From NCBI RefSeq assembly GCF_000250735.1, contig NZ_AHZV01000334.1, positions 1-64,000 of the forward strand: DNA of 64,000 bases, written 5' to 3'. This document shows, piece by piece, positions 41,771-61,270 of this stretch; the first letter of the stretch is position 1; the number at the start of each line of letters is the position of its first letter. The stretch is from Anaerophaga thermohalophila str. Valhall. GTDB taxonomy: Bacteria; Bacteroidota; Bacteroidia; Bacteroidales; Marinilabiliaceae. A model generated the notes under the pieces. The model saw nothing but the letters and a program-made list of their open reading frames with translations. It made no database searches and was not told where the DNA came from. Made by a program: the position numbers and the translations under genes.

Positions 41771-41935
41771 TAGTGTCGTGTCAAGCATAAAATGTCGCAC
41801 CAGGCATCACTGATTTTCGTTTTTTCTTCATGATAAAAAGCTTACGTAGCTATGGCTATGCGCGCTTTTTCTCATTTTGAAAAAAGCAAAAATCAGTTTC
41901 AACTTATACGACAGTTTATACATGACACGACACTA
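41771..41935 (+). mobile_element. MITE-like palindromic element, family C
   Basis: 165-bp element with both ends reading inward TAGTGTCGTGTCA (perfect 12 bp, then GCATAAAATGTCG against TGTATAAACTGTCG). The interior is also self-complementary: CTGATTTTCGTTTTTTC against GAAAAAAGCAAAAATCAG, and AAAAAGC against GCTTTTT. The whole element would fold into one long hairpin. It is the only copy in the window. Its right end forms the stop codon of the GH43 gene at 41933. Confidence 0.75.
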
Positions 41936-43276
41936 TTCAAACTTAATCCAGTCAACAGAAAATGCGGTATTCTCGTCAGAAACAACAAAAAGATCATGAA
42001 CACCGGTAGGACTATTCTTTAACCGTGTATTCTCAACTGCCCAATCATTGGTATTTTTCATATCTACAGTGGCCAGGACATCTCCATCGGGAGCATCAAG
42101 GCGGATTTCGAAACGACTGCCTGTTGGGGACATAACTTTTGTGCCAACTACTTTGTAGTTTTTGTCATTAAAGTCGACTTTATTATACCTCACCCACTCT
42201 CCTTTTTGACTTAAAGTAACTTTCCAGCCTTTATGTGTGTCAAGCGTGTCAATAAAGGCTGTTTTTACACCATCCCCGGAAATATCACTGTAACGGTCAA
42301 TCTGAATCCGTTTATCGGCACGTGTTATGCCTACCCCACGTAATGTTGGCGTTACTTTCCGGATGGTACCATCGGTATTAAAAAAGAGGCTGTCGGCTCT
42401 GATAGAACGGTTTTTGTCGAAATGGGGTGAAAGATCGTTGTGATGATAGAACAAATACCACTGATCGTTATATTCGATTATAGAGTGGTGGTTAGTCCAG
42501 CAACCGGTAGGCGATTCGTCCATAATTACGCCCTTCATTTCGAAAGGCCCCATAGGATTGTCACCTACGGCATATTCTAAACGTTCGGTTTTATTTTCGA
42601 CATGAGGAAAAGTTAGATAATAAGTGCCATTTCTCTTAAAAACCCAAGGTCCTTCTTTTAGTCCCTCTGAGGGCAAATTCTCAATTTTGTGCGGCTCTGA
42701 TGCCAGTTCCAGCATATTATCTTTTAGTTTAGCCACGAAAATATCGCCCATCGACCAGTAAATATAGGCTTGTCCATCGTTGTCAATCAGAATATTAGGG
42801 TCAATCCCAAAAATACCTTCGATTGGTTCATCTTCCACAACATACGGTCCTTCGGGATTATCGGCTATAGCCACCCCAATACCAAAACCTTTCCGGCCGT
42901 TAGGTCCAACGTTCTTTGTATTGGCAGGGTAATAAAAGTAATACTTGCCGTTGCGTTCGATACAATCGGGCGCCCACATACTGTAAGATGTAGAATCCAC
43001 CCAGTCGGCATCGTACTGACTGACAATCATACCGTGATCGATCCATTGCGTAAGATTCTCAGACGAAAATACGTGATAATCTTCCATGCAAAACCAATCC
43101 TCCCTTAAGCCTTTTCCCTCAGGAGCAGGAATGTCGTGCGATGGAAATACATAAACTCTATCGTTGAAAACCCTTGCCGACGGATCGGCAGTAAACTGAT
43201 CCATAATCAGGGGATTTTGGGCTAATAGAGCCGGAATAGTTACTATCCATGCAAGAATACTTAATATTGTTTTCAT
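41933..43276 (-). CDS. GH43 glycoside hydrolase with C-terminal CBM6-like domain
   Basis: Five-bladed propeller enzyme of family 43 (beta-xylosidase or alpha-L-arabinofuranosidase). A signal peptide MKTILSILAWIVTIPALLAQ directs it to the periplasm. The catalytic base lies in FTADPSARVFNDRVYVFPSHD (Asp about 31), the pKa-modulating Asp in FGIDPNILIDNDGQAYIYWS and the acid Glu in LKEGPWVFKRNGTYYLTF. About 120 C-terminal residues look like a CBM6 beta-sandwich (RYNKVDFNDKNYKVVGTKV, SPTGVHDLFVV). ATG 43276 is chosen because the 25 residues before it lack signal character. The stop codon TAG is shared with the end of the family C element, so the last few residues may have been altered by its insertion. 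Confidence 0.88.
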   Translation of the reverse strand: MKTILSILAWIVTIPALLAQNPLIMDQFTADPSARVFNDRVYVFPSHDIPAPEGKGLREDWFCMEDYHVFSSENLTQWIDHGMIVSQYDADWVDSTSYSMWAPDCIERNGKYYFYYPANTKNVGPNGRKGFGIGVAIADNPEGPYVVEDEPIEGIFGIDPNILIDNDGQAYIYWSMGDIFVAKLKDNMLELASEPHKIENLPSEGLKEGPWVFKRNGTYYLTFPHVENKTERLEYAVGDNPMGPFEMKGVIMDESPTGCWTNHHSIIEYNDQWYLFYHHNDLSPHFDKNRSIRADSLFFNTDGTIRKVTPTLRGVGITRADKRIQIDRYSDISGDGVKTAFIDTLDTHKGWKVTLSQKGEWVRYNKVDFNDKNYKVVGTKVMSPTGSRFEIRLDAPDGDVLATVDMKNTNDWAVENTRLKNSPTGVHDLFVVSDENTAFSVDWIKFE

Positions 43277-43495
43277 AATAAAAAAGTTTAACGGGTATTG
43301 AAAGGCCATTTTGCAATCGGTTTTTCTATTTGCCTTCTTCAACCTTTTCATGATAATGGGGGCAGGTTTCAGGAGCCTGGTAAATTTGCCGGTAAAAACT
43401 ACACATCAAAAAAGAAGCCACCCACATCATTAAATAGTGAGCAGCTTCCAATCTACTAATCAACAAATTCCTTTCAGGGTGTGAATTGCTTTAAA

Positions 43496-44042: not shown

Positions 44043-47000
44043 TTAAAAAGTACCGTCCGCCACTATTTTTACATATCCTTTTTCCGAATTCCCCATAATA
44101 TAGACTCCTGCAGGCAAGCCTGAAGTAGAATTTTTTCTTTTAACCCCGTTTCGGAGCTTTTGTCCCGTAACAGAATATACATCCACAATATCATCAGGTT
44201 TGATCTTTTCATAAATCACTTCCTGAATTGAAGTATTGTATTCATCGGAATTTGATAAAAACACATCATCAATAAAAATAGGACTTCCACCCAAAGACCA
44301 AAAACCGACAATATAAATATGCGATGGATCAACAGCTACTATTTGACCATCCACCTCTTTTTCCATTCGGTTAAGGTCAATAATTAATTCTGCTTCATTT
44401 TCAACATCATGGGTATATGGAGAAGACCAATAGCTATTCTCATCAAAAATACGGAAGGAGGCTCCATTTCCCGGAACTTCCTTTAACCTGACAACTAAAT
44501 ACTTATATCCGGACAAATCCAATCCGTTATCGTATTGCCAGCCACCGAAACCATACTGTCCTGTAATTAATTCGCCAGTTGTTTCGTCAAAAGTTCCGTT
44601 TTCCCATATAGAGGGATTAAATAGTTCATTGGTTAACGGAAAAGTGCTAACCACCACATTAAATTCAATGGTTTGTTGGTTTCCTACTCTGTCCTGGTAA
44701 GTCGCGGTAATATGACTCTCGCCGTTTTCGCCGGCAACAATTTGCCCGTTTACGATATTGACCACATCCGGGTTACTGTTCGAATAAGTAGCTTCTGTAG
44801 AAACATTTTCCGTATGCCCGTCCTGAAACAGGGCGGTAATTCTCAATGTCCTGCTGGTTCCCGTTAGCAATTGCATCTCAGTATTCTCCACAGAGAGGCT
44901 TTCGATTGTTAGCTGATCTTCGGTGAATCCGGAAAAATTGTCATCGTAGAACATCTCCTCGGTAAAAAATTCCTCTGTAGTAAACCAATCAATATCAACG
45001 TATCCACCTGTAGTCTCAGTTGCATAATTAAAGATGCAAAACTTATTTCCTGTAAAGACGGACAGATCGAAGGCCATATCCAATTCCTGTCCAAAACGGG
45101 TGTAGGTTTCATTATCAGTGCTGTAATAAAAACGGGCCTTACTGGTGCCATAATTGGCTACAGCACGCAGGTAAACAACTGTATCTTCCAATGCAATACC
45201 GGTTTCTATATTGCCATCGCTTTCTGTAATTAGTTTTCGCTCTCCGTCTGTCACGGTTACACCAATAAATGCATAGGGATTCTGAAAAACAGCCAGCCCG
45301 GCCACATCTCCTTCTTTCATATTGGCAACATGCATCTTAATGGTACCATACGAATCAACTCCTTCCGAATGATATCCAAATATCCTCTGCGTAAGTGTAT
45401 TTCTAGCCTCGGGAAGTTCTGAAAACACATTAACTGTCTTTAAACGTAAAAAGCCCGCACGGTCAAACAAAGACCACCTGGAATTGTCCGGATTGTGATT
45501 CCAGCCCCATTGCAATCCAGGTTTATAATCCCTGAAATTGTCGTTAGTTGGCAAAACTTTTACAGGAAATTCACGCCCGACATCAGGCTTTCGATAAGTG
45601 GTAACGCCTTTTCCGTCTTCACCGATCTCCGGCCAGTTATCCACCCATGTAACCGGCTGCAGGTTGGGGAAACGACCGTAAGCACCTTTATCATAAAATA
45701 ATATAGTCCACCATTCCCCGGTTTGCGTTTCTATCAAAGCCCCCTGATGGATATTGTCATCATCCAGAAGCAATTTCTCTTCGTAGGATCCGAATATATC
45801 AGTTGATCTGAAAGCAACCTGTGAAGCCGGCCATCCGCCATAAGTTGCATAAATGTAATAATACCCGTCTATTTTGTACATGTGACAACCTTCAAGTCCT
45901 TCATCGGGTCTTTCAATCACCGTCCGGTCCGCTCCCACTGCTTCAAAATTTTCATCCAGTTCGGTTATCTTGATGGTATTAATGCCATAAACCACATAAG
46001 TTTTACCATCATCGTCGAAAAACAGTCCGGGATCGTAGTAACTACGCGAAAGCTGCTCCAACGTCCACGGGCCTTCGGGATTGGTGGCTGTTAGCAGAAA
46101 CCCGCCCTCATCCAGCGTATTAAACATGATGTAAAACTTACCGTCATTATATCTTAAACTTGATGCCCATTGTCCTCGAGCATACCGGTTTTCTCCGTTC
46201 AACAGGTTATAGGCATCACTCGATTCTATCATTTCCAGGGGATTGCTGCAATACTCCCAGTTAACGAGATCATAACTTTTCAGCAAGGTAGCACCCGGAA
46301 AGATATGCATTGTGGTACTTACCATATAATAAACATCATCCACGCGTATAACGTCGGGATCAGGAAAATCGGCATGTATCAAAGGATTGGTATATGTTCC
46401 GTCACCATTATCACTATGGGACTGATATTCAAACTCAGGACGAGGATAGTTTTCGTTGGCATAATCCCGAAACCAATGATAAACAGGCCAGGGACATGCT
46501 TCCGGGTCATTCAGGAATGTATAGGGTTCGCCATCAGCAGGGGCTTCATTGGTAAAATCTGCAAGCAAGTGCGGACTGGTAAAAAGCAACCAGCTAACAT
46601 TGCCTGAATCATCCATTATTTTCTTGAAATTTGCTCCAAATCCATCTCCTCCGGCGGTTCCTGTTATTCCGGTTCCCCAGGATACATCCTCATATTTCCC
46701 GGGTGCCCAGTCCATTTCCGTTATCATAATTGGTGCAAAGTCAGAAACCGGCTTTACATTTGCATCCCACTCTCTTTTAAATACATCATAGCCATCAGCA
46801 CTTCCAAACCAACCCGGATAAATATGAACGGCATAGCCGATATTCTCCCCCTCAATGGGATTTACTGCATAACCTTTATATTGAGACTGGTATCCCGAAC
46901 CGGGAACCCATAAAACATTATGGAACCCATTTTCACGAATTTTATCTACAACAGGCTGGAAAATGTCTTTCAATGCATCGAAATGAGCCTGGCTATTGCT

Positions 47001-47627
47001 TCCAACACTTCCGTCAGCTAACTTAATTCTCACGGGCTCATTGGCAAGTTCAAACATGACCTCGTCCATTGCTTTGATCTTGGGATGAGATGAAACAATA
47101 TCCCATACATTAAGTAAGTACTCTGCATAATTGTATTCATCGTTAACCCCTATTACTTCCGGACAAACGCCAGGAGGCCGGATAACTACATACAACCCTT
47201 TAGAGATAGCATACTCAGCCATGGGGACAAAAACCTCATCAAGATATTTTCTGAAGCGGGTTTCACTGAAACAATTGGGCAGTTCATGACCATCAGGCGT
47301 ACAACCAGGTTCATTCGACCAGTAAGGGTCCATGTGTAAACGGATAAAATTCATTTTCCAACCGGCATCCAAAATATCATCAATGAGTCCCTGGTTGTAT
47401 GTCAGGCATCCTTCCACATCATAATTATCCCAGTATTGTCCGCGTTCGTTAAACCAGGGACTGTATGTTTGAGCAAAACCATGCAGATTAACAGTGTTGC
47501 CATGGGTGTCTTTTAAATATCGGCCTTCCACATGCAAACGGGGTGTGGGCATACCTTCCCATGCGAAAACCATATCAACAGATAAAAAAAACACAAAACT
47601 TAAGAGTAGTAAAAATCTGGCATTCAT
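44043..47627 (-). CDS. Bifunctional GH5-GH43 enzyme with Ig-like and carbohydrate-binding domains and a T9SS-type tail
   Basis: A 1194-residue secreted xylan or arabinoxylan enzyme. Layout: signal peptide (1-22); GH5 barrel (about 25-375) with acid/base Glu in MFELANEPVR (about 195) and nucleophile Glu in IMITEMDWAPG (about 304); GH43 propeller (about 410-700) with ADFPDPDVIRVDDVYYMVST, YDPGLFFDDDGKTYVVYG and DEGLEGCHMYKIDGYYYIY; a ConA-like beta-xylosidase C-terminal domain (about 720-900); a bacterial Ig-like domain (about 935-1015); a beta-sandwich glycan-binding module (about 1020-1130). The end reads VDVYSVTGQKLRNGV...LPAGVYIM, a type A T9SS sorting signal. It follows GH10 on the same strand with about 500 bp between, and family B and terminator sequences intervene. 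Confidence 0.88.
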   Translation of the reverse strand: MNARFLLLLSFVFFLSVDMVFAWEGMPTPRLHVEGRYLKDTHGNTVNLHGFAQTYSPWFNERGQYWDNYDVEGCLTYNQGLIDDILDAGWKMNFIRLHMDPYWSNEPGCTPDGHELPNCFSETRFRKYLDEVFVPMAEYAISKGLYVVIRPPGVCPEVIGVNDEYNYAEYLLNVWDIVSSHPKIKAMDEVMFELANEPVRIKLADGSVGSNSQAHFDALKDIFQPVVDKIRENGFHNVLWVPGSGYQSQYKGYAVNPIEGENIGYAVHIYPGWFGSADGYDVFKREWDANVKPVSDFAPIMITEMDWAPGKYEDVSWGTGITGTAGGDGFGANFKKIMDDSGNVSWLLFTSPHLLADFTNEAPADGEPYTFLNDPEACPWPVYHWFRDYANENYPRPEFEYQSHSDNGDGTYTNPLIHADFPDPDVIRVDDVYYMVSTTMHIFPGATLLKSYDLVNWEYCSNPLEMIESSDAYNLLNGENRYARGQWASSLRYNDGKFYIMFNTLDEGGFLLTATNPEGPWTLEQLSRSYYDPGLFFDDDGKTYVVYGINTIKITELDENFEAVGADRTVIERPDEGLEGCHMYKIDGYYYIYATYGGWPASQVAFRSTDIFGSYEEKLLLDDDNIHQGALIETQTGEWWTILFYDKGAYGRFPNLQPVTWVDNWPEIGEDGKGVTTYRKPDVGREFPVKVLPTNDNFRDYKPGLQWGWNHNPDNSRWSLFDRAGFLRLKTVNVFSELPEARNTLTQRIFGYHSEGVDSYGTIKMHVANMKEGDVAGLAVFQNPYAFIGVTVTDGERKLITESDGNIETGIALEDTVVYLRAVANYGTSKARFYYSTDNETYTRFGQELDMAFDLSVFTGNKFCIFNYATETTGGYVDIDWFTTEEFFTEEMFYDDNFSGFTEDQLTIESLSVENTEMQLLTGTSRTLRITALFQDGHTENVSTEATYSNSNPDVVNIVNGQIVAGENGESHITATYQDRVGNQQTIEFNVVVSTFPLTNELFNPSIWENGTFDETTGELITGQYGFGGWQYDNGLDLSGYKYLVVRLKEVPGNGASFRIFDENSYWSSPYTHDVENEAELIIDLNRMEKEVDGQIVAVDPSHIYIVGFWSLGGSPIFIDDVFLSNSDEYNTSIQEVIYEKIKPDDIVDVYSVTGQKLRNGVKRKNSTSGLPAGVYIMGNSEKGYVKIVADGTF

Positions 47628-48125: not shown

Positions 48126-50327
48126 TTACTCAGTCTCAACAAACTCTTCGCCTGCAAGTCCTTCAGCAAATCCGGCATAAGTATGTTTACGATAATCGAA
48201 GTCCTCTGTCCAGAGACCTATAGGCTCTCCACCTCTCCAGGATGAAGATGATGGAGGATCTGCAGGACTCCAATGTGCAATGCCATATCGCTGGTTTGCA
48301 GGAATAATTTCAAAATACTTTCGAATGATGAAATTATAGAACTCAGCCATTGCCATATGTTGTTCTTGAGTCACTCCATCATCTATCATTACAGCATCGC
48401 CGTTCTCATCCACCAGCCCCATATCCAGCTCGGTGATTTTCACCAATTTGCCGGTTTCTGCCAACAACTCATACATTTGTACAATATGCTCTTCCTTACT
48501 GGCTTGTGTTTCCGGATTCATATGGTATGAAACATGCATCTGCGTGCCAATGCCATCAATGACAGTCTCACCATCCGACTCCCATTGTTCAATCCAGTGG
48601 ATCAAGCTTTTCAGCTTTTGGTTGTCATCCCAGTCAGACTCCAGATTGTAATCGTTGACAAATAATTTCATATCATCCGGGCCATATTCACGTGCCAGTT
48701 CCACAGCCGTACGTACATAGTTGTCTCCAAGATAGTCCTGCCAGTAGAAATTATTTTCAGGATCACCAGTGTCAGCCGATTGAAGGTCATAATACCCGTC
48801 ACCATCGTTATCTGCACCTGAAATCGGTTCATTAACTACATCCCATGACTTCACATAACCATCGGTGGCTTCCATCATTCCAGCAATCCATTTGTCCAAT
48901 GCATACGTTAAAGTATCAGCCTTCTCTTCATCTGTTAAGGGGATTTTATTTCCTGATTCTTCTATTTCAAAATAGATATCATCGAAATAATAGGTATTAG
49001 CTTCATCAAAAACAGCGAGGTTAAAAGCGATGGTGCTCATTCCGTCCTGTGCGGCATCTATTGTACCAGAGTAACTGTATTCCTGCCACTCGGTAGTAAA
49101 GTTAGGGCTTCCGACCATATACCAGATGAGGTATTGTCCAGGCTCGGCATGTGCCTGAGATTCCGAAGGGGCAGGTTTTTCAGCTCGAATCTTCATGCTG
49201 AAGCGATACTTTTCACCCTCTTTGAACACATGAGGAACCCTGACAAAGAACTGTGTGTCCCAAGGGTTTGTGGGATTATCACCAGACTGCACCACAATGG
49301 CTCTGCCAACACCGTCAGCACCGGTACCGGGTGCACCAACTGTGGCAGTTTTAGGACCATCTGTCATCTCAGTAGCAAAAAAGCAGGAAAGGTCATCACT
49401 TTCCACATCACTGTTGGTAACCAGATTGGTCCACCAAGAGATAGCGGCAGCCTCTTCATGCGTTACTTCTACCCAGTCTATCTCATAAGTTCCCACGTAA
49501 TGTCCCGATTGTAGCATAACAAAGCTACTTTCTGCAGTACCAGTTAACTCTGCTGTCACTTCCTGCCATTCTTCAGTAAATGAAATTGTTGTATTTTCCT
49601 GGCCACCCCAGTCTCCCATTACCAAAGTAATATCTCCGGGAGTAGAGCCTTTTATGCGTAAAGTCACCTTATACTTGGTACCAACTTTGGTTGGAATCCC
49701 ATCGGCAATATGAAATTGTACATCCCAAAAATTAGGTGTCGCTTCCTCATTGGTTACAACCAATATTTCATTCTCAACCACTGGATCTACATAGCTAGAA
49801 GACCAAAAGGTATATGCTCCTCCTAAATAATCTTCAGTTCCGTCAACTACCTCCACCGTTGCATCAGGATCAATATCAAGTTCTTTATCGGCGATGATGC
49901 TTTCAAGGTATTTTTTATTCTGCTGTGCATGCCAGACAAGGGTGTGTCCATAAATCTCAGTATTTGCTTCTTTGGCTGCAGAAACGAACTGAACAACCTG
50001 GGAAAAATCCATCGAACCGTCATCTTGAACAACAGATCCATATTTCATGGCATTTCCAGCGGTGATCTCATCGAAATTGGAATTTACAAGACTGTATAAT
50101 GCTCCTTTTTCAGAATATCCACTTGCAGAAACTCCAGCCCCCAACTTAAAGTCTGGATTTTTATTGCGATCAACGTATGATTTCAATACGTCATATTCTT
50201 TTAAATATTCTTTCTCTGCAATACTTTTCGGCTTTGCTACATCATATTCAAGCATACTATTGTCTGCACAGGATGCCAACAATAATAATGCAATAGTGTA
50301 TTGCCAGTATTTATTCAAAAGTTTCAT
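48126..50327 (-). CDS. GH10 endo-beta-1,4-xylanase lipoprotein with two CBM modules inserted in the barrel
   Basis: Surface endo-xylanase of 733 aa. An SPII signal ends YTIALLLLASC. The GH10 barrel starts LGAGVSASGY and reaches YGHTLVWH (about residue 130). It is then interrupted by two CBM4_9/CBM22-like beta-sandwiches (about 180-300 and 305-455, each ending in a WDVQF/WDTQF and a YEIDWVEV/YYFDDIYF strand). The barrel resumes with LTYALDKWIAGMMEA, the acid/base Glu in WDVVNEPIS (about 498), MKLFVNDYNLE, IDGIGTQMHVS and the nucleophile Glu in KITELDMG (about 632). This inserted-CBM form is known from Bacteroides and Prevotella xylan PULs (Xyn10C type). It is the last gene of the tandem SusCD operon and is followed by a terminator. 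Confidence 0.94.
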   Translation of the reverse strand: MKLLNKYWQYTIALLLLASCADNSMLEYDVAKPKSIAEKEYLKEYDVLKSYVDRNKNPDFKLGAGVSASGYSEKGALYSLVNSNFDEITAGNAMKYGSVVQDDGSMDFSQVVQFVSAAKEANTEIYGHTLVWHAQQNKKYLESIIADKELDIDPDATVEVVDGTEDYLGGAYTFWSSSYVDPVVENEILVVTNEEATPNFWDVQFHIADGIPTKVGTKYKVTLRIKGSTPGDITLVMGDWGGQENTTISFTEEWQEVTAELTGTAESSFVMLQSGHYVGTYEIDWVEVTHEEAAAISWWTNLVTNSDVESDDLSCFFATEMTDGPKTATVGAPGTGADGVGRAIVVQSGDNPTNPWDTQFFVRVPHVFKEGEKYRFSMKIRAEKPAPSESQAHAEPGQYLIWYMVGSPNFTTEWQEYSYSGTIDAAQDGMSTIAFNLAVFDEANTYYFDDIYFEIEESGNKIPLTDEEKADTLTYALDKWIAGMMEATDGYVKSWDVVNEPISGADNDGDGYYDLQSADTGDPENNFYWQDYLGDNYVRTAVELAREYGPDDMKLFVNDYNLESDWDDNQKLKSLIHWIEQWESDGETVIDGIGTQMHVSYHMNPETQASKEEHIVQMYELLAETGKLVKITELDMGLVDENGDAVMIDDGVTQEQHMAMAEFYNFIIRKYFEIIPANQRYGIAHWSPADPPSSSSWRGGEPIGLWTEDFDYRKHTYAGFAEGLAGEEFVETE

Positions 50328-50347: not shown

Positions 50348-51379
50348 TTAGTTAACACTATAAGAAGGACTGAACGTCTCTATTGTAACACCACGGTCAC
50401 GAACCACCAGAGTATCTCGTGTCTGGTACTGTTTGATCTGGAAATCAATTTCATAGTCAAGATATAAGACATCGCGGTCTTTATTGCCCCAACTATTTTT
50501 ATCGCCATCTTTTACAAATTCACCTGTTCCACTTGCAGTATAACCAGTTGTTCCTGATGTAATGGTACAATTATTATTGTCATCAAAAGTCAGAATCAAC
50601 TCACAAGTCAATGTGTTAGTTCCATCTGTAGTACTTACAGGAAAAATTACAGAATTTAAAGAAGCTGTTTCCAGACTGACCACCTCGTCGTCCTCAACAT
50701 ATTCTTCATGCCTGACCTCAGTTCTAGTTTCGCCACCTTCAGTAATCACATCCTCACCTCGACGCAGGTAATTAGCATGCCAGGGATTGATGAATTTTAC
50801 ACAATAGAGGACAAAATCCTTGGGTTGAATTTCCCAGTCGGCAGCGTTAGTTCTGATGGGAGCATCAACCATTGGAACCCCCGAGAGTATAGAGTCTGCA
50901 TTTGTAACACTATTCATTTTCAGTGGAATCACATAGGTGTTTTCCAGAGAATTTGGATCTGCAAAAAAGGCATCCGACAATTGTACTTCAACACCTCCCT
51001 CAAGTTCACCCTCCAGTGTTATCTTATTTGTTGCCAATGAGTAATAATCGTCAGGCATCGGTAGTACCGGAGTGGACCCTTCATCAAAGTACAAATTATC
51101 ACACAATGCATCATCTACAGAAATATCTATTTCTATGTTTTTTTCATTTTCGTAAACGCCCCCCATAGTAGCATATATTTTACATTTATGCTCATTATCG
51201 AGGCTATTGTCATAGATATCTTCGCCCAACACTATTGTCCTTACCGGATATTGATAAGGAAAATAGACAGTGGTATATTCAAAATCAGGAAAATCCACGT
51301 CTTGGTTCTCACACGAAATCATCGTCAGCAATGCAAAGATTCCTGCAGACAATATCGATAAAATTTTAATCCGTTTCAT
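50348..51379 (-). CDS. SusE-position xylan-binding lipoprotein (DUF1735/XusE-like)
   Basis: 343-residue surface lipoprotein. The SPII signal ends AGIFALLTMISC, then ENQDVDFPDFEYTTVYFPYQYPVRTIVLGED opens a DUF1735-type beta-sandwich (residues about 30-180). A second beta-rich domain (about 190-343) contains LTLTFDDNNNCTI-like strands. In Prevotella and Bacteroides xylan PULs this position between SusD and GH10 is held by XusE, thought to bind xylan at the cell surface. It lies between SusD (51410) and GH10 (50327), with gaps of 30 and 20 bp, in one operon. Confidence 0.8.
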   Translation of the reverse strand: MKRIKILSILSAGIFALLTMISCENQDVDFPDFEYTTVYFPYQYPVRTIVLGEDIYDNSLDNEHKCKIYATMGGVYENEKNIEIDISVDDALCDNLYFDEGSTPVLPMPDDYYSLATNKITLEGELEGGVEVQLSDAFFADPNSLENTYVIPLKMNSVTNADSILSGVPMVDAPIRTNAADWEIQPKDFVLYCVKFINPWHANYLRRGEDVITEGGETRTEVRHEEYVEDDEVVSLETASLNSVIFPVSTTDGTNTLTCELILTFDDNNNCTITSGTTGYTASGTGEFVKDGDKNSWGNKDRDVLYLDYEIDFQIKQYQTRDTLVVRDRGVTIETFSPSYSVN

Positions 51380-51409: not shown

Positions 51410-53197
51410 TCAATTCCAACCCGCATTTTGTTCAAGATTATCCCATTTCAGAATTTCCTGATACGGAATTGGTCCATGATACATATAGTCTTTGTACATC
51501 CTGGGTTCAACATCAATTGTCTCATATTCTTTTCCTCCACCGGTTTCAGCAATTTGCATTCCAAGTGCTGTTTCATTTAACTTATTCAGTTCTACATTCC
51601 ATCGACGTAAATCCCAGAAACGATGATTCTCGAAGCAGAGTTCCAGACGACGTTCATTACGAATCAGTTCACGCATTTGATCTTTACTGCCTGCAACTTC
51701 ATCCAAATATGGATCACCATTACCATTCCCAACACCGGCTCTTTGACGGAGAGCTCCTATGACATCGTATGCCGAGTAGCCGTTTCCACCGGTACCTGTT
51801 GGTCCCCAGGCTTCGTTTGCCGCTTCGGCATAAGCCAGAAATATTTCAGTATAGCGGATACGGGCAGTGTAATGCTTTTGCTCGGTATCATACTCAGGAT
51901 TGGGATTACAATCCGAACGTAAAAGTTTCCGTAGATAATAGCCTGTGCGGGTGGACAGCCCACTTTCACGGTTTATCGCATCTTCATTATCTCCATAAGT
52001 ACCGGTAACAACCACAGCATCGTTAGGTCCTTGCGTACTTTCATTAATTACGATGTAATTTGTTAAACGAGGATCGCGATTATCATAAGGGGAAGAAGCA
52101 TCAAAATTACTTGAAGGATGGTTAATGGGATATCCATTAGCCATGGGGAAAGCATCCACCAGATTCTGGGTGGGATTCACCCGCCCATTTCCGTATTGTG
52201 AAGGTGGAAAATTATCAGTCTCTAAATCATTGCTTTGACTAATATCACTTCTCCATATAATCTCAGCAGGAGTAACCCCGGATCCCAAGCCATCAATTTC
52301 ACCGGTATTGGCAAACCATGTCCAACCGTCATCATCCATACCACTAACTCCATTTATACGATCCAGCACAATTGCGGCATAGTTTGCGGCATCTTCCCAT
52401 GTCATTTCTGTTCCGTCAGTGTATGAAGGACTTGCTGCCAAAAGTGCAACCTGTGACCGCACGGCCTCCACAATACGACCGGAAATGCGTCCCCGCATGT
52501 GATTGCCATTTACCCGATTATAATCACTGGCATTGGTTACTCCTAATTCCTGATATTTCTGTGGAACTTCTGAATCTGACACATCACCATAATCCAGAGG
52601 TAACAATTCCAGGGCTTTATCAATATCAGCCATTATCTGCTCTACGCATTCCTGAAATGTATTCCTGGGGACATTAAATTCAGAGTCTTTATCCTCAGGT
52701 TCTGTAACAATCGGTACGCCAAGTAAACGACCATCTTCGGTCCATCCGCCATGAGACAATAACAGATGATACATCTGAAGGGCCCGTAAACCATAAGCTT
52801 CGCCTTTTAAACGATCGTTAAACATTGTCCTTATCACTTCATCTTTTGCCCAAACAACATCATCGGCATTGGCCAAGAAAATATTCAAATATTGAATGGC
52901 ATTTCTCCGCCCTTGCCACTGTGATGTCGGATTGTTGTCAGACGACCAGGAGCCGGTGGCCATACTTAAATAATCATTTTCAAAGTCATTGGTCACAGCA
53001 TCATCGGTCGCCAAATCACTATTGGGCGAATTCGAATAAGGAAGAAGAATATATGCATTCGCAAGTATGCCCTGGGCATACGTTGGTTCCTGATGCATTG
53101 CATCAAGCCCCCGAATGTTCTCTATTTCCGGAGTAAAAACATCCTGACAGCCTGTAACCAGGAACAATAGAACTAAAATTTTAATAATATTTTTCAT
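51410..53197 (-). CDS. susD: SusD-family xylan-binding lipoprotein (second of the tandem)
   Basis: Outer-membrane SusD/RagB protein of 595 aa partnering the SusC 32 bp upstream. The SPII signal IIKILVLLFLVTGC gives Cys17. The N-terminal TPR-like half has RGLDAMHQEPTYAQGILANAY. The C-terminal part has RIRYTEIFLAYAEAANEAWG and IRNERRLELCFENHRFWDLRRWN, the standard SusD blocks, ending LEQNAGWN. It is the fourth gene of the operon SusC-SusD-SusC-SusD-SusE-GH10, matching XusD by position. Confidence 0.92.
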   Translation of the reverse strand: MKNIIKILVLLFLVTGCQDVFTPEIENIRGLDAMHQEPTYAQGILANAYILLPYSNSPNSDLATDDAVTNDFENDYLSMATGSWSSDNNPTSQWQGRRNAIQYLNIFLANADDVVWAKDEVIRTMFNDRLKGEAYGLRALQMYHLLLSHGGWTEDGRLLGVPIVTEPEDKDSEFNVPRNTFQECVEQIMADIDKALELLPLDYGDVSDSEVPQKYQELGVTNASDYNRVNGNHMRGRISGRIVEAVRSQVALLAASPSYTDGTEMTWEDAANYAAIVLDRINGVSGMDDDGWTWFANTGEIDGLGSGVTPAEIIWRSDISQSNDLETDNFPPSQYGNGRVNPTQNLVDAFPMANGYPINHPSSNFDASSPYDNRDPRLTNYIVINESTQGPNDAVVVTGTYGDNEDAINRESGLSTRTGYYLRKLLRSDCNPNPEYDTEQKHYTARIRYTEIFLAYAEAANEAWGPTGTGGNGYSAYDVIGALRQRAGVGNGNGDPYLDEVAGSKDQMRELIRNERRLELCFENHRFWDLRRWNVELNKLNETALGMQIAETGGGKEYETIDVEPRMYKDYMYHGPIPYQEILKWDNLEQNAGWN

Positions 53198-53229: not shown

Positions 53230-56103
53230 TTAGAATACTGCTTTTACACCCAGATTATAAAACCTTGTTTGAGGTGCATTCGTTACCTCCATTTCCAGGG
53301 TCTCGCGCTCGGGAGAGATGGTCAACAAATTGGATCCACTAACGTAAGCAGATAATTCCTTGAAAAAGATATTCTGTAACAAACTTTTCGGTATATCATA
53401 AGTAATCTGAACTTTAGCTATATTGAACCGGTCGGTGCTGTATAACCAGAAGTCAGAGTTTCTGAAATTATTACTTCCACTTTGCGTCGTTAACCTGGGA
53501 TAGGTTGCTGAACCTTTTGTTTCCTCTGTCCAACGGCCGCGAACAACTTCTGAATATTTCCGATCACCGTAAACCCAATGATAGTTGTCATCTTTCATGG
53601 CATAAGCGCCAAAATAACCTGTTCCTAATACAAAAAATGTTAAATTATCCCACTTAGCAGTTACGTTTACACCCAAAGTAAAAGGATTACCATACCAGCC
53701 ACCTTTACCAAGAAAAACCTCATCCCTGCTATCTATAACATTATCATTGTTCTGATCTACATACTTTATGTCTCCGGGTTTTACTGTTCCACCAAAAGTT
53801 TGTGTAGGTGAATTGTCAATATCTGACTGATTTTGGAAAAACCCGGCCGATTCAAGCCCCCATATTCCGTCAACAGCTTTGCCCTGACGTTTCTGATAAT
53901 CATACTCATAATTCGTATCATCGCGTCGAGTGGCTTCAGTTGTATAATAAGTCCCTGACACCCCAAGTGTCAAATCAACGTCACCGAGGTCTTTATTATA
54001 ATTCACACTAAAATCTATACCCATTCGCTGATCATTATTATAATTAACGTTTGGTACAAATGATGCTTCGGGATAATAAGTGAAAAAATAATTCGGATAT
54101 AAACCCATAGGCTGAGTAACCATCCCTTCCATGGAGTTCATAAAGAAAGAAGCATCGGCATTAATCGTGTTTTTCCATAATGAAGTTCTCAAGTTTGCCG
54201 ATAGTTCTTTCCGCTTAATAAAAGTCAAATCTTCATTTTCACCTTGTATGGCATTTGTTGATCGCTCTGCAGCCCCATCATACCAACCCCACCAGGCGCC
54301 ATCAGACTGATTAAAGCTTCCGGCATATTCATAATGCCCATCAATACTCATATCGGTATGAAGAACACTTCCTGAGACGCTCAATATAAGATCATCAATT
54401 ACTGATGAATTAGAAAGGAAATTTTCTTGTCCCATTCTCCACCCCAAGGTTACCGAGGGAGAGAAAGCATTTCTATTCCCTTCAGCAAATTTGGCCGAGT
54501 GAACAATTGCTCCGGCTAAATCGGTATAATACTTATTTTTAAAATTGTAACTTAACTGAAGACCCAGATTAGCATTGGCTGTATTGTGATAAACGCCTGA
54601 CTCTGCTTGTTGGTAGCCTGTAGCCACCAAAACAGCCGAAATATTATGGTTATTATTTACCGTAGTTGAGTAATCAAACCACCCGGAAAAAGCAATCGTC
54701 TGACGGTAGTTTTCATCACTAAAATCAGGATTTCCCGATTTTTCATCATTGCCTTCTTTTTCCAATTCACCAATAACATCATCGCCATTGTAATTATACC
54801 ATCTTGGAATATAAACAGCATATTCATTCTCATACGCAGAGGTAAAAGATGTTGCATAATCTACAGCAAACTGTGTATGGAAAGAAAGACCTTGTAAAAA
54901 ATTTTGCAAGTCGAAATCAATGCCTGTATCGAACTGAAACTGACGATTTTTCCATTTATTATAACCTCCGGCATAAGAATCTGCGAAAACATTCTTATTA
55001 TCTACTTGTGTCCCTGCAAGAAAATATTTCCCATCAATAATATTGCTGCTATTATTGACCAATGACAAAGCACTTAAGGCATTCCCATCGATATAACTTA
55101 GCGGAACCAGTGGAGCTATCCGGTTAGGGCGCATTGACGCTGCATAGGTCCAATAATTATCAACATTTTCATCATCGTCGGGATCACTATCAGTATAATT
55201 GATACCTCTGGATGTATAAAATGTTGCATTGGCATTAATATACGCATCAATAAAATCATTTAATTTCACATCAACATTCCCACGTACATTTAATCGCTCA
55301 TCATAATTATTGGCAGCCTCACCAAAGTTAAGGAAATCGCCCTGCCGATAATAGCCAATATTAGTATAATACTGAGCTCGCTCATTTCCACCTACTAACT
55401 CGGTTAATATATCTGTACGGTTATAGGCTTTCTGAAGGTAGTCTGAAGAATAAAAATCCACATTAGGATAACGATATGGATTACTTCCTGATGCATGATT
55501 ATAAATGTCTTCCTGACTGTACAGGGGGTCTCTTCCATCGTTGACCAAAGCCTCATTATAGAGTGTCATATATTCGGCTGAATTTAGATACTTCGGATAA
55601 CTTTTCGAAACATGAAATCCGGTATTAACACGAACATTAACCTGAAGCGGCTGAGCTTTTCCACGTTTTGTTGTGATATAAATCACACCTTTTGCAGCAC
55701 GACTTCCATAAAGAACAACAGCCGAAGCACCTTTAAGAAAAGTAATATCTTCAATTTCACTTGGCAAAACATTATCAGCATCTCTGGGAACACCATCTAT
55801 GAGCACCAGCCGATCATCCATCCCCCATAATAAATTGCCGTTCCAGCCACCGATGTAGCCCTCCATATTTTCCAAACTATAAGTATGATAATTTTTATTC
55901 ATCAAATCTTCTACATCGACTACAGAAACACCTCCTAAAAGGTTACTTTTGGCAACCTCTCTAAAGGCAACCTGAACCAGGGTATCCTGTTTTACTTTAT
56001 CTATCGTATCAGTTTCATTTTCTGCAGTTGTTTGTGCCTTAATAAAGAAGGGCAACAAAACAAACGACGCAAATAAAATGAATCCTATTTGTATATGTTT
56101 CAT
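53230..56103 (-). CDS. susC: SusC-family importer lacking the N-terminal carboxypeptidase-like domain (second of the tandem)
   Basis: TonB-dependent xylo-oligosaccharide transporter of 957 aa. A signal peptide (LFASFVLLPFFIKAQ) is followed almost directly by VQVAFREVAKSNLLGG and the plug (VLIDGVPRDADN, VVLYGSRAAKGVIYITTKRG). The usual 80-residue CarboxypepD_reg-like sandwich is absent. The barrel ends RFYNLGVKAVF with terminal Phe. SusC proteins without this domain are known, and XusC-like members are often of this form. It pairs with the SusD at 51410 and follows the first SusD by 42 bp. Confidence 0.92.
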   Translation of the reverse strand: MKHIQIGFILFASFVLLPFFIKAQTTAENETDTIDKVKQDTLVQVAFREVAKSNLLGGVSVVDVEDLMNKNYHTYSLENMEGYIGGWNGNLLWGMDDRLVLIDGVPRDADNVLPSEIEDITFLKGASAVVLYGSRAAKGVIYITTKRGKAQPLQVNVRVNTGFHVSKSYPKYLNSAEYMTLYNEALVNDGRDPLYSQEDIYNHASGSNPYRYPNVDFYSSDYLQKAYNRTDILTELVGGNERAQYYTNIGYYRQGDFLNFGEAANNYDERLNVRGNVDVKLNDFIDAYINANATFYTSRGINYTDSDPDDDENVDNYWTYAASMRPNRIAPLVPLSYIDGNALSALSLVNNSSNIIDGKYFLAGTQVDNKNVFADSYAGGYNKWKNRQFQFDTGIDFDLQNFLQGLSFHTQFAVDYATSFTSAYENEYAVYIPRWYNYNGDDVIGELEKEGNDEKSGNPDFSDENYRQTIAFSGWFDYSTTVNNNHNISAVLVATGYQQAESGVYHNTANANLGLQLSYNFKNKYYTDLAGAIVHSAKFAEGNRNAFSPSVTLGWRMGQENFLSNSSVIDDLILSVSGSVLHTDMSIDGHYEYAGSFNQSDGAWWGWYDGAAERSTNAIQGENEDLTFIKRKELSANLRTSLWKNTINADASFFMNSMEGMVTQPMGLYPNYFFTYYPEASFVPNVNYNNDQRMGIDFSVNYNKDLGDVDLTLGVSGTYYTTEATRRDDTNYEYDYQKRQGKAVDGIWGLESAGFFQNQSDIDNSPTQTFGGTVKPGDIKYVDQNNDNVIDSRDEVFLGKGGWYGNPFTLGVNVTAKWDNLTFFVLGTGYFGAYAMKDDNYHWVYGDRKYSEVVRGRWTEETKGSATYPRLTTQSGSNNFRNSDFWLYSTDRFNIAKVQITYDIPKSLLQNIFFKELSAYVSGSNLLTISPERETLEMEVTNAPQTRFYNLGVKAVF

Positions 56104-56145: not shown

Positions 56146-58095
56146 TTACCATCCGGGATTCTGGCTGAACTCAGGATACATAGAAGTATCCGAAATCTTA
56201 AGAGGAAGCCAATAGTGTTTTTTCCCGAACTGACGGGTCAATATCACTTTTTCACGGAAATTGGCAACTTGTGCATCGCGCGGATCATTGTCCTCATAGA
56301 AAGAATCATCTTCAACCCGCTCGAACTCCTGAGATGTTTTAATATTATAAGGCTCTTCTGTTAACAACAACCATCTCCGTAAATCATTAAAACGAAATCC
56401 TTCGAATGCCAATTCAACTGCTCTTTCTCTGCGCACTTCATCCATAAACAATTGTGGATCGCCAGTAAACTTTGCAGCCACATGACCAGCACCTACGCGG
56501 TCGCGAAGAGTATTAATGGCATCTTCAGCCGTTTTTGAGAAGTTAGAAGCACTGTATGTTGCTCCGCCGGCTGCTGCACAAGCCTCGGCATACATTAAAT
56601 AAATATCGGCTAAACGCATATAGGGCAAGTAAGTATGAAGATTACCAGACCAGTTGTAGGCTCCATCATACTTATTAGCAGTATGAGGGACCAATTTTTG
56701 ATAAAAATATCCTGTACGACTGGCATTGCTTACTTGCCGCATGGGACCGTCCGTATAAAGACTGGCATATCTAAGGTACTCCATATCCTCTGGCATAGAG
56801 CTATTCACGTACTGAAAACCATCAAATACAATATCATGATAGAACCTTGGATCGCGATTTTGAAATGGATAATTGGGATCAAACCCTGATTCGGGATCAT
56901 CCAATGGCAAGCCATTTTCCATCCCATATAGATTCACATAATTGGCTGTTGGCTGATGAATTATATTATCATGCTCAACAAGTCCCTGTACTTTTGGTCC
57001 AAAAGTCTTTGTGGTGTTCCAGTTACTACCATTAGCATCAGGAGAAGGACCGCGAAAAATAGCTTCAGTCGAACCTGGCATCAACCAACCTTGTCCTGTA
57101 GTATAAAATATATCACTGTATTTTGTATCTGCATCGGACTCATGATTATATATATCCTCATAATCAAATTCGACCAGAGCATATTGAGTTTGGCCGCTTT
57201 CAACCAGACTCAATAATTCGCCAAAAGCTTCTGCAGCTTGTGTACAATAATCTACATCGTAATTATAGGTGTTTCCACCCCCGGTTTCAGCCCCATTTTT
57301 CATTAGAGGACTTCCTGCCCACAAGTAATTTTTACCTAAATAACCAAGTGCCATTATCTTGTTAACACGAAGTTGATTTTTGCCTGGTGTCTGACTACCT
57401 GGTCCTGTGTTGTCCCAATTAACAGGTAACAAATCTGCTGCTTTACGAAAATCAGAGCCAGCCATGTCGGCACACTCCTCATAAGTCAAACGCGGTTCAG
57501 AGAGCTGTTCTCCAGCCGGCAAAACTTCATCAATATATGGCATACCTCCAAAATACTGCATTAACTGAAAATGCCACCATGCTCTGAAGAAATACAACTG
57601 ACCTTCGATCAGCGCAATTTCTTCCTGGGTAGCCTCTGTTAATTTATCCAGATTGGCCAAACCAATATTAGCCTTGCGAATAGAATACCATGCATGCGGC
57701 CATATGGCATGATCAAACTTATTTGTGGAAGAAGGATCGGCATTATCTTTGTCCAACCAGCTACCATTTTGAGCCATTCTGCCTGCCTGCCAGGCCCAGA
57801 AATTACCAATATCGACCTGATGCACCATGTGCCAGTCGGCCTCCGGATTCATAATCTCATCATCTCCCCAGTTCCAGGAAGTTGTCCAATATGATTTTTG
57901 TTTGTCGGGAATACAATTGTATATCTCTTCAATGAATCCCTGAAAATTCTTGAAATTCTTAAACGCCTCTTCCTCAGACACAATTGCCTCTTCTCCCTTT
58001 TCCAAATAATCTTCACAGGAACTATTTCCGAAAAGCATTATGAACAATATGCCTCCCCACAAAAATGCTTTATATAATTCTTTCATTGTCTTCAT
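56146..58095 (-). CDS. susD: SusD-family xylan-binding lipoprotein (first of the tandem)
   Basis: 649-residue SusD/RagB lipoprotein, larger than average. The SPII signal ends LFIMLFGNSSC, then EDYLEKGEEAIVSEEEAF, a typical SusD opening. Later blocks are LYFFRAWWHFQLMQYFGGMPYIDEV, LPYMRLADIYLMYAEACAAAGG and VRRERAVELAFEGFRFNDLRRWLL, ending YPEFSQNPGW. It starts 4 bp after the SusC gene at 58100 and matches XusB by position. Confidence 0.93.
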   Translation of the reverse strand: MKTMKELYKAFLWGGILFIMLFGNSSCEDYLEKGEEAIVSEEEAFKNFKNFQGFIEEIYNCIPDKQKSYWTTSWNWGDDEIMNPEADWHMVHQVDIGNFWAWQAGRMAQNGSWLDKDNADPSSTNKFDHAIWPHAWYSIRKANIGLANLDKLTEATQEEIALIEGQLYFFRAWWHFQLMQYFGGMPYIDEVLPAGEQLSEPRLTYEECADMAGSDFRKAADLLPVNWDNTGPGSQTPGKNQLRVNKIMALGYLGKNYLWAGSPLMKNGAETGGGNTYNYDVDYCTQAAEAFGELLSLVESGQTQYALVEFDYEDIYNHESDADTKYSDIFYTTGQGWLMPGSTEAIFRGPSPDANGSNWNTTKTFGPKVQGLVEHDNIIHQPTANYVNLYGMENGLPLDDPESGFDPNYPFQNRDPRFYHDIVFDGFQYVNSSMPEDMEYLRYASLYTDGPMRQVSNASRTGYFYQKLVPHTANKYDGAYNWSGNLHTYLPYMRLADIYLMYAEACAAAGGATYSASNFSKTAEDAINTLRDRVGAGHVAAKFTGDPQLFMDEVRRERAVELAFEGFRFNDLRRWLLLTEEPYNIKTSQEFERVEDDSFYEDNDPRDAQVANFREKVILTRQFGKKHYWLPLKISDTSMYPEFSQNPGW

Positions 58096-58099
58096 ATTT

Positions 58100-61000
58100 T
58101 TATAATGTTATTTTGACACCAAGATTGTATCGTCTCATCATAGGATAAGCACCCTGACCACCTGCCCCGGCAAAGTTTGACTCCCGGTCGTCAGGCATAT
58201 CTGACCATACCCAAAGATTGTTACCATTGATGAAAACTCTCAACGAATTAAAGCCAATCCTCTTAATCCATCCACTGTTATCGAAAGTGTATGCAATTTC
58301 TGCATTCTTTAAACGGATATAAGACCCGTCAAACAAAAATTGAGTGCCGGAATGGTAGCTTGGAGTAGACATCCAACGGGGAACGACAACATCGGCATTC
58401 GGATTGTCCTTCGACCACCACGAGCCCAGGTCATATACAGTATTTAATTGACTTCCAAAACTATTAAGCGGAACATATCGCGTCACATTATTAACACCAT
58501 AAAATTGTACAAAACCGCTAAACCCTTTCCACTCAAAACCAACTGTCGCATTATAGGTGTTTTGCGGTGTACCCGAATAACCATAAGGGATTTGGTCTTT
58601 ACTGTCAATTACGCCATCGCCATTGAAATCAATAATCTTATAATCACCAACCAATTTCTCTCCGTCATTTGTATCATGAGGTGTTGTTGCATATAGCTCA
58701 TCATAGCTATTAACAAACCCTGCATCTACATGTGCCCTGTTCTGTCCAATACTATAGCCGGCATCTTTCTGATAATCGGGCAACAACTGAGGTTCTTCCA
58801 TTTTAATGATCTCATTTTTTGCGTGAGTCATACTCATGTTCGCCCATAAACGCAGCCGGTTAGGAAGAACTTTATTGATACGTAGCTCTGCTTCATAACC
58901 TTTTACCTCTACTTCTCCAAGATTAGCAGCAGGAGGATCTGCTCCGAAGTAGGATGGAACTGAACGGTCTTCTCCTGAAATGAGTACATCCTCACGCCTA
59001 TCTTTGAAGATATCGATGCTTCCGGCAAACAGACCATCAAAAAAGGCAAAGTCTGCACCATAGTTTAACTTCTTCACAGTTTCCCAACGAACATCAGGAT
59101 TACCTATCGATGCAACTCGATACCAGGTATAAGGACTTTCACCCTGGTTCATATCCATTGATGTTTGGCCACCATATTCCCATACTGTTCTGTACAATCC
59201 CAGTGCATTTCCTATGGATGAATCATCCCCAATCTCACCGTAAGAAGCCCTCAGTTTTAACATATCGAGAAAACCGATTGACTGCATAAAAGATTCTTCA
59301 GATATCATCCAACCAACAGCTCCTGAACTAAAAAAAGCAAAACGGTATTCAGGGCCAAATTTATCGGATCCATTATATGCACCATTATATTCCAAGAAAT
59401 ACCTGGTATTGTAATCATAAGTAGCCCGGAAAGCCCAGTCTTCTCTCTTAACCGGGATAAATCCAAAATAATCTGCAGTATTCTCTTCACGAGAAAAAAG
59501 GCCCATCCCTGTCAGGTTATGATTTCCAAAACTACGAGCCCAGTCTAACTGTAATTGATAGTATAGTTTCCGTTGATCTAAACTGGCAGAACCTGCTTCA
59601 ATATTCCACAATACAGACTGCATATAGTCAAATTTGTTATTAGCCTCATAGTCCTGCTTAAAATAAACATCTCCAGTTTCAGGGTCAATCCACTTTTGTT
59701 GCGGATCGTTGTAAAGGTCATTAATGCCCCGATTTGTTTCAACAAAAGTATTATCCCATGCTATTAATCCCTTAAAATTCAGGCCTTCTGTAATAAAATC
59801 AAGCTTCTGCTCAAGAGTGAAATCAGTATTGATCCGTGTAGTAGTTGTTGTCATACTTCCGGCAACAGCCAAATTCATAGCCGAATTCGATACATTCGAG
59901 ATATCGGGATAATACCCCCACGATCCATCAGAATACTTAGGAAGAAACACATCGGGAGCGATATTATATGCACCTGCCCATTGCTGAGCAACTGCCCAGT
60001 CGGAAGAATTCGTCTGCCCCCAGGGAGATTTTTTCGCCCCGTTTGACCCAGCTATATTAACCTTAAAAGTAGTACTTCTGGTAATCTCAAAATCTAGATT
60101 ACTTCTAACATTCAATCGGTTATAGCCATATCCCGATTCATAATTACGACCATTGTCCCATACATTAAAAAGATCGCCTTCATGAATAAAGTCTGCAGCG
60201 GCGTAATATTTTACAAAATCAGTACCTCCACTTACACTTAAATTGGCATTATACGACATGGCATAATCCTTAAATATAGCATCCTGCCAATCGACATTAG
60301 GATAACGCTCTCTCTGAGCTACGGTTGTTTGATTTCGATAGTTTTCGATAACTGACTGAGGAGTCATGTAATCCCATGAATCAGGGTTTAAAGACAATTC
60401 ATGCTCAACAGCAACATTCCTGGCCATCAGAGCATCATAAGAATCGTATTTATTAGGGAGTTTCGATGGGGCTTTCAGTGTCACATCTCCACCTACGTCA
60501 ATACGTGCTGAGCCTTTTTTACCCCGTTTGGTAGTTACAAGAATAACGCCATTGGCACCTTTTACACCATAAACGGCAGTAGCCGAAGCATCTTTTAATA
60601 CTGAAATACTTTCAACAGAGCTTATATCCACACTACTCAAAGGACGTTCGATGCCATCTACCAAAACAAGAGGTTCACTATTATTCCAGGTACTGGCGGA
60701 ACGAATCAAAATTTGCGGGTTTTCTTCTCCTGGCATTCCGGAGCTGGACATAGTAATAACTCCAGGAAGATTTCCTGTCAAAGCAGCTCCAACATTGGGA
60801 ACTCCGGCTGAACGCTCCAATACTTCGCCTGTGGTTTGAGTAATGGAGCCTACAACACTTGCTTTCTTTTGTTGACCATAACCGACAACTATCACGTCGT
60901 CCAAAGCAATTGACGAACTACTTAAAGTTACTGTAACGTTGGTCTGAGTACTTACATCTATTTCCTGGGTATTCATCCCAACAAAAGACACCACAATAAC

Positions 61001-61270
61001 ATTTTCATCATCAGGGATTTCCAGCGAAAAACGCCCTTCCATATCCGTAACACTTCCATACGACGTATTACCCTTAACTACTACTGTTGCCCCAGGTATC
61101 GGTTCATTATTATCGTCAAGGACGATCCCGCTAACCGATTTCATATCCTGCGAGTAAACAGCAAAACTCAAACAAAACATTATCAGTAACAAAACGCCCT
61201 TCGGGTTGAAGCTCAACCTTATTAAGGACCAGCGATTTGCCTGATATACATTCTTATCAATTTTTTTCAT
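58100..61270 (-). CDS. susC: SusC-family TonB-dependent importer (first of the tandem)
   Basis: 1056-residue outer-membrane importer, XusA by position. An N-terminal extension precedes the signal helix (GVLLLIMFCLSFAVYSQ). A CarboxypepD_reg-like domain (VSGIVLDDNNEPIPGATVVV), the TonB-box region (LDDVIVVGYGQQKKASV) and the plug (PLVLVDGIERPL, TAVYGVKGANGVILVTTKRG) follow. The barrel ends RRYNLGVKITL. The gene before it (GH43, 61455) is on the same strand 184 bp upstream with no clear promoter between, so the xylan operon may start at the GH43. Confidence 0.94.
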   Translation of the reverse strand: MKKIDKNVYQANRWSLIRLSFNPKGVLLLIMFCLSFAVYSQDMKSVSGIVLDDNNEPIPGATVVVKGNTSYGSVTDMEGRFSLEIPDDENVIVVSFVGMNTQEIDVSTQTNVTVTLSSSSIALDDVIVVGYGQQKKASVVGSITQTTGEVLERSAGVPNVGAALTGNLPGVITMSSSGMPGEENPQILIRSASTWNNSEPLVLVDGIERPLSSVDISSVESISVLKDASATAVYGVKGANGVILVTTKRGKKGSARIDVGGDVTLKAPSKLPNKYDSYDALMARNVAVEHELSLNPDSWDYMTPQSVIENYRNQTTVAQRERYPNVDWQDAIFKDYAMSYNANLSVSGGTDFVKYYAAADFIHEGDLFNVWDNGRNYESGYGYNRLNVRSNLDFEITRSTTFKVNIAGSNGAKKSPWGQTNSSDWAVAQQWAGAYNIAPDVFLPKYSDGSWGYYPDISNVSNSAMNLAVAGSMTTTTTRINTDFTLEQKLDFITEGLNFKGLIAWDNTFVETNRGINDLYNDPQQKWIDPETGDVYFKQDYEANNKFDYMQSVLWNIEAGSASLDQRKLYYQLQLDWARSFGNHNLTGMGLFSREENTADYFGFIPVKREDWAFRATYDYNTRYFLEYNGAYNGSDKFGPEYRFAFFSSGAVGWMISEESFMQSIGFLDMLKLRASYGEIGDDSSIGNALGLYRTVWEYGGQTSMDMNQGESPYTWYRVASIGNPDVRWETVKKLNYGADFAFFDGLFAGSIDIFKDRREDVLISGEDRSVPSYFGADPPAANLGEVEVKGYEAELRINKVLPNRLRLWANMSMTHAKNEIIKMEEPQLLPDYQKDAGYSIGQNRAHVDAGFVNSYDELYATTPHDTNDGEKLVGDYKIIDFNGDGVIDSKDQIPYGYSGTPQNTYNATVGFEWKGFSGFVQFYGVNNVTRYVPLNSFGSQLNTVYDLGSWWSKDNPNADVVVPRWMSTPSYHSGTQFLFDGSYIRLKNAEIAYTFDNSGWIKRIGFNSLRVFINGNNLWVWSDMPDDRESNFAGAGGQGAYPMMRRYNLGVKITL

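Follow-up and report, generated by a model that had tools for sequence, protein, structure and literature searches.

A short C-terminal tail as a likely type IX secretion signal on a GH5-GH43 enzyme of Anaerophaga thermohalophila

Short C-terminal domains (CTDs) of the type IX secretion system (T9SS) were described in 2025 in the oral species Prevotella intermedia by Ye and colleagues (PMC11969387), who determined five short-CTD cleavage sites and report that CTDs of both lengths, short and long, support cleavage and C-terminal glycosylation. A short CTD spans 40-55 residues from the cleavage site to the C-terminus, the cleavage consensus is PT/GI, and P. intermedia is stated there to be the sole species of the phylum reported with both lengths. 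In the chitin polysaccharide utilization locus (PUL) of Flavobacterium johnsoniae, which has two SusC/D pairs and lipoproteins, the T9SS secretes the multidomain enzyme ChiA completely, as a soluble protein (PMC5127042); ChiA belongs to GH18 and its CTD is of type C (PMC10202324). In Candidatus Paraporphyromonas polyenzymogenes, multi-catalytic GH5 enzymes carry T9SS CTDs and are accompanied by a GH5 lipoprotein, while archetypical SusC/D PULs are absent from the genome (PMC5831590). Here we describe a GH5-GH43 multimodular enzyme encoded at 44043..47627, on the minus strand, of a 64,000 nucleotide window, by which we mean the whole stretch of DNA that was analysed: positions 1 to 64,000 of contig NZ_AHZV01000334.1 from Anaerophaga thermohalophila str. 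Valhall (assembly GCF_000250735.1).

A first-pass annotation of the window had described the gene as a GH5-GH43 chain with all key acidic residues and with ConA-like, Ig-like and binding modules, and had predicted type IX secretion from its tail. On the architecture the open reading frame (ORF), Pfam, alignments and structure models all agree with it. The secretion signal is well supported by comparison, with the reservation that the tail is short and not a canonical CTD. We are fairly confident that the protein is a multimodular hydrolase, probably directed at xylan or arabinoxylan, with a C-terminal tail of 62 residues that is a T9SS sorting signal of a short, type-A-like form. Taken together, the T9SS genes of the genome, the co-occurrence of the tail with SprA and the variety of tails among homologues suggest that the tail is most likely a working signal, which would bring the enzyme to the cell surface.

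The gene is a single unbroken ORF of 1194 amino acids. It starts with a signal peptide (residues 1-22, MNARF...MVFA/W; 47562..47627, minus strand like all parts of the enzyme), which has no lipobox cysteine and whose cleavage point was placed by eye. At the other end, the tail (residues 1133-1194; 44046..44231) reads VDVYSVTGQKL...GLPAGVYIM, as the annotation had given it, and ends directly before the stop codon. As in the short CTDs of P. intermedia (PMC11969387), there are three predicted strands, a motif B (YxxxG; Y1151 and G1155), a motif D (GxYI; G1174-V-Y1176-I1177) and a basic motif E (K1187), a cleavage-like T/SI stands in a disordered linker, and there is no long first half. The linker (residues 1132-1138; 44214..44234) has a predicted local confidence (pLDDT) below 50 at model residues 240-246, and its motif reads NT/SI. 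The strands (255-259, 265-271 and 285-287 in model numbering) form one three-stranded sheet; block means of pLDDT along the tail are 83, 85, 85 and 73, followed by 50 and 40 at the end. Further, the protein shares with short CTD proteins a signal peptide, a tail at the very C-terminus and a host with a T9SS. It differs from those of P. intermedia in several respects: the cleavage site is predicted only, the remaining CTDs of the host, a Marinilabiliaceae relative, are mostly canonical, and the exported protein would be a GH5-GH43 enzyme encoded in a PUL.

Compared with the canonical type A CTD (TIGR04183, PF18962), the tail corresponds to the second half, aligning to positions 14-56 of the 72 in the TIGR04183 model, while the first half with its PxP is absent. 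A type A CTD has PxP and about seven strands; here there is no PxP and there are three strands. When tails are scored in isolation, that of the enzyme reaches 20.1 bits against TIGR04183, the highest of 11 aligned tails, none of which attains the cut-off of TIGR04183 or PF18962. The CTDs of Ca. Paraporphyromonas were found with TIGR04183 (PMC5831590), whose cut-off the tail described here misses.

The first-pass annotation had proposed a search for T9SS genes and named their absence as evidence against secretion by this route. They are present. A profile search of the genome finds SprA (2781.8 bits), PorU (1241.5 bits) and PorV (513.8 bits; L194:8557-9744), as well as PorK, PorL, PorM, PorN and a PorP family protein; all of them exceed their curated cut-offs. 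The same genome has 20 TIGR04183 CTD matches above the cut-off, and PxP is found in 16 of the 19 that were read (the 20th, L001, was left out).

Next, we studied how the tail is distributed relative to SprA, using a profile (A1) built from 11 such tails and searched in genome sets alongside SprA. Among the 151 genomes of family f59, tail and SprA occur together in 98, the tail alone in 2, SprA alone in 13 and neither in 38, where 110 of the 111 SprA matches lie above the cut-off. The lower-scoring A1 matches include other CTD-like tails (L082, L083 and L086, by eye), and we therefore also give counts at E<=1e-8, where 60 genomes are tail-positive, 59 with SprA and one without. TIGR04183 matches number 18 in G454 and 32 in G477, the two tail-only exceptions, so that SprA was likely missed in the draft assemblies. 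The contrast is also seen within genera: among the genomes listed, genus g79 has three with both (G549, G563, G591) and three with neither (G117, G222, G475), and genus g229 two with both (G565, G579) and two with neither (G452, G478); TIGR04183 matches in the five genomes with neither number 0, 2, 0, 0 and 1. These within-genus contrasts apart, the co-occurrence counts are uncorrected for relatedness, which belongs with the points on the other side taken up below. In the order set of 393 genomes, 371 have SprA and 96 are tail-positive. None of the 20 SprA-less genomes listed is tail-positive, and two further SprA-less genomes, by elimination G414 and G423, are absent from the tail list. At E<=1e-8 the tail is found in 23 of the 393 genomes, spread over 13 families. 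An idea that short tails are common in Bacteroidaceae lacking a T9SS was dropped, as the f59 counts went the opposite way.

The company that the tail keeps also bears on what it is. In the related genome G007 it stands on the homologue of the enzyme, beside 73 TIGR04183 matches, and in other genomes the same tail type is found behind unrelated sequences. The tail could in principle be an ordinary structural extension of the preceding jelly-roll module, unrelated to secretion, as a conserved jelly roll precedes it in 31 aligned homologues, all chosen for reaching the tail. We regard this as very improbable: the tail occurs without that context elsewhere, it is separated from the jelly roll by the disordered linker, and it goes together with SprA.

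Four genomes of genus g242 (G490, G560, G545 and G465) have between 20 and 28 short-tail profile matches each. G490 has 28, with 25 TIGR04183 matches where overlap between the two sets is possible, and G560 has 15 TIGR04183 matches beside its short-tail ones. Judging from these profile counts, the short tail may be a main T9SS signal in this genus.

A further line of evidence comes from proteins homologous to the GH5 module. Without 5 duplicate loci and 10 proteins that were open or truncated, the set comprises 51 complete ones, the window included, and these were classed for tail and signal by patterns of our own. The short tail is found in 33 of the 51. Among the others without a lipobox, 4 have a long CTD, 5 a third type of tail and 5 none or something else (one of these, L135, resembles the third type by eye). 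The remaining 4 (L030, L031, L035, L036) have a lipobox, and all of them lack both tail and GH43. For L128 and L133 the signal call is uncertain, as a cysteine lies within the signal. Two of the four long CTDs, in L017 and L127, are on full-length GH5-GH43 proteins and occupy the same end as the short tail; one genome bin, ZodW_Metabat.292, has both a long-CTD copy (L127) and a short-tailed copy (L132). In a midpoint-rooted FastTree tree, which carries no support values, some long-CTD, third-type and tail-less forms are nested among the short-tailed ones. This indicates that the C-terminal signal has been exchanged within the family, which fits a functional cassette.

The third type of tail, EYYTxxGxR...GIxIVxxxxxDGTxxxxK, was seen in L025, L028, L163, L154, L155 and L166, with L135 similar, and from its sequence it is possibly another T9SS signal. 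One homologue, L137, is in a record titled as a Clostridium sp. metagenome-assembled genome (MAG), where the enzyme is accompanied by SusC/SusD genes; the record is probably a misnamed Bacteroidales bin.

Several observations weigh against a working T9SS signal, and part of them would be expected if the tail were vestigial or foreign, unread by the T9SS of the host, and the enzyme remained in the periplasm and trimmed imported oligosaccharides. In the whole protein the tail scores 14.8 bits against TIGR04183 (cut-off 23 bits) and 14.5 bits against PF18962 (cut-off 27 bits). It is the only strong tail of the short type in its genome, which has 20 further CTD matches. Since a CTD does not always function in the T9SS of another species (PMC11285876), a tail acquired from elsewhere could be inactive here. 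Compared with three Marinilabilia, the tail core is 65-70% and the linker 44-56% identical, against 86-89% for the catalytic modules; the homologue of Marinilabilia salmonicolor is 79-80% identical to the enzyme. In addition, four full-length GH5-GH43 homologues with a signal peptide have no tail (L138, L139, L140, L144). The 62 residues from the supposed cleavage to the end exceed the 40-55 reported for P. intermedia (PMC11969387), and a cleavage-like [TS][GSA][IVM] is found in only 15 of the 33 short-tailed homologues; L123, L143 and L149 have PTGI in place of NT/SI. The lack of PxP in all 30 f59 tail loci inspected counts in favour of the signal, but these are the best-scoring ones and weaker matches may be other CTD types. 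The by-module estimate of dN/dS (nonsynonymous to synonymous rates) in the tail core, 0.17-0.26 where finite, is uninterpretable since synonymous sites are saturated.

Still, we think it unlikely that the tail is idle. The 11 aligned tails all retain its motif residues, some homologues have a long CTD in its stead and GH5-only relatives a lipobox, and the tail tracks SprA. The divergence from Marinilabilia is not special to the tail either, as the Ig module (61-64% identity) and the signal peptide (24-38%) are at least as divergent. A search with the C-terminal model returned no solved CTD among its structure matches; the list hardly covered the tail and is no argument against a CTD. The four tail-less proteins, which also lack a lipobox, are from Bacteroidaceae MAGs of ruminant guts.

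We return to the tail as a T9SS signal. Export, cleavage, anchoring or release, and substrate we infer from sequence comparison, and the route may be pictured as follows. The N-terminal signal peptide would direct the enzyme to Sec export; the sheet of the tail with motifs B, D and E would be recognised by the T9SS and PorV, and the chain would cross the outer membrane through SprA. PorU would probably cut within the disordered linker, close to T1132/S1133, and might also join the enzyme to the surface, where it would work beside the lipoprotein GH10 and the SusC and SusD proteins that the PUL also encodes. In a variant compatible with this scheme the tail still serves as a T9SS signal, but the cleaved enzyme is set free into the medium instead of being anchored. 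ChiA of the F. johnsoniae chitin PUL is such a soluble T9SS product (PMC5127042), though with a type C CTD (PMC10202324). The short CTDs of P. intermedia, on the other hand, supported cleavage and C-terminal glycosylation, that is anchoring (PMC11969387), and PorU and PorV are both present in the genome. Release is thus a possibility that we hold tentatively, as the lesser one.

The GH5 catalytic module of the enzyme (residues 22-400; 46428..47564) has a Pfam match at residues 88-305 (E 1.2e-14), and its acids E197 (ANEP) and E304 (ITE) do not vary among 27 aligned sequences. Its model (pTM 0.84) matches GH5 structures at Z up to 27.9, and the TIM-barrel fold and two catalytic Glu expected of GH5 are both found. 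It is remote from solved proteins, with identity of at most 22% among the 50 alignments listed in the fold search; PDB profile and fold searches return distant GH5 enzymes only, mostly endoglucanases. The GH43 module (residues 412-666; 45630..46394; Pfam E 2.6e-41) belongs by sequence to this family of five-bladed propellers with Asp, Asp and Glu, and D423, D532 and E579 align with the Asp/Asp/Glu of 6mly and 3zxj. We take the Glu pair of GH5 and the Asp/Asp/Glu of GH43 to have their usual catalytic roles. Behind them follow a GH43_C2 ConA-like module (residues 695-884; 44976..45545; Pfam E 8.9e-33), a Big_2/LigA-like Ig module (about residues 905-994; 44646..44915) and a jelly-roll, CBM-like module (about residues 995-1129; 44241..44645) that was recognised by structure model and fold search. 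Its matches are 7zkq (Z 12.4), 6r3m (Z 10.8), 1v0a (Z 10.7), 6sgf (Z 9.4) and 2c24 (Z 8.4), a fold common to structures of CBM11, CBM30, CBM86 and a complex I assembly factor.

Among solved proteins the nearest to the GH43 part is the bifunctional GH43-CE protein 6mly, then HiAXHd3 (3zxj), which share GH43 and the ConA-like module with it (349.7 and 216.5 bits). HiAXHd3 is, as we assume, an arabinofuranosidase acting on doubly substituted arabinoxylan. The enzyme has another fusion partner, however, and substrate specificity is not safely transferable from either. By its sequence it is probably a xylan- or arabinoxylan-directed hydrolase; the GH10 in its neighbourhood fits xylan as a substrate, and nothing in the data points to mannan in particular. 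A literature search on GH5-GH43 fusions with arabinoxylan found no clear precedent among the papers listed.

The surroundings qualify as a PUL: in a minus-strand cluster two SusC/D pairs adjoin the GH10, GH5-GH43 and GH43-CBM6 genes, and a third SusC with a broken SusD is also nearby. Next to the enzyme are a GH43-CBM6 protein (41933..43351), which has a signal peptide but neither lipobox nor tail, and the GH10 lipoprotein with CBM4_9 (48126..50327). Then come a DUF5627/BT_3987-N lipoprotein (50348..51379), a SusD-like lipoprotein (51410..53197) with a SusC-like TonB-dependent transporter (53230..56103), and a SusD-like protein with NSSC near its signal end (56146..58095) with a second such transporter (58100..61270). 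A GH43-GH43_C2 lipoprotein gene (61455..63187, minus strand) is split over two frames. Of 12 partner ORFs tested, 7 show the lipobox pattern, namely GH10, two of the three SusD, GH30, the DUF5627 lipoprotein, a SusE/F-like lipoprotein and one GH43. The view of the GH10 and SusD partners as lipoproteins thus holds for GH10 and two SusD; the third, with NSSC, falls outside, as the pattern used did not accept it. The combination of GH10, DUF5627 lipoprotein and second SusD beside the enzyme recurs in 5 of 48 related loci (L117, L129, L146, L147, L148), the rest having other neighbours or being incomplete.

Some genes in the region are broken. The SusD gene at 34816-36330 has an in-frame TAG at about 35413-35415 with an ATG directly after. 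The split in the GH43-GH43_C2 gene lies near 62633-62645, with both parts side by side in several relatives, and may be a sequencing error or real decay. A methyl-accepting chemotaxis protein (40011-41599), between two parts of the PUL, is in two ORFs of different frames. With three genes of this sort inside about 28 kb, errors in the draft are a possible cause.

Two export routes in one PUL, as the first-pass annotation had proposed, fit this arrangement. They are not new: the chitin locus of F. johnsoniae is already known to combine a T9SS-exported multidomain enzyme with two SusC/D pairs and lipoproteins (PMC5127042), with chitin where we expect xylan. T9SS-linked multi-catalytic GH5 enzymes are likewise known in kind; the multi-catalytic enzymes of Ca. 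Paraporphyromonas differ in lacking the SusC/D setting found here (PMC5831590). What is added is a short CTD in this lineage, its spread beyond P. intermedia and its exchange on one enzyme family; in a literature search limited to open-licence papers, short CTDs were reported for no species other than P. intermedia.

On balance we lean towards a wider view in which P. intermedia is no special case: short T9SS CTDs would form a portable sorting cassette found across the order, often scoring below standard cut-offs, and nature would have switched this enzyme family between routes, namely short CTD, long CTD, another tail, no tail and, in GH5-only members, lipoprotein anchoring. T9SS cargo is often counted with TIGR04183, for instance in PMC5831590. 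If such tails work as signals, the cargo lists of many Bacteroidales may be too short. The natural variants of the enzyme family offer test material for the minimal T9SS signal, and the same variants could address display by the T9SS versus display as a lipoprotein within a PUL.

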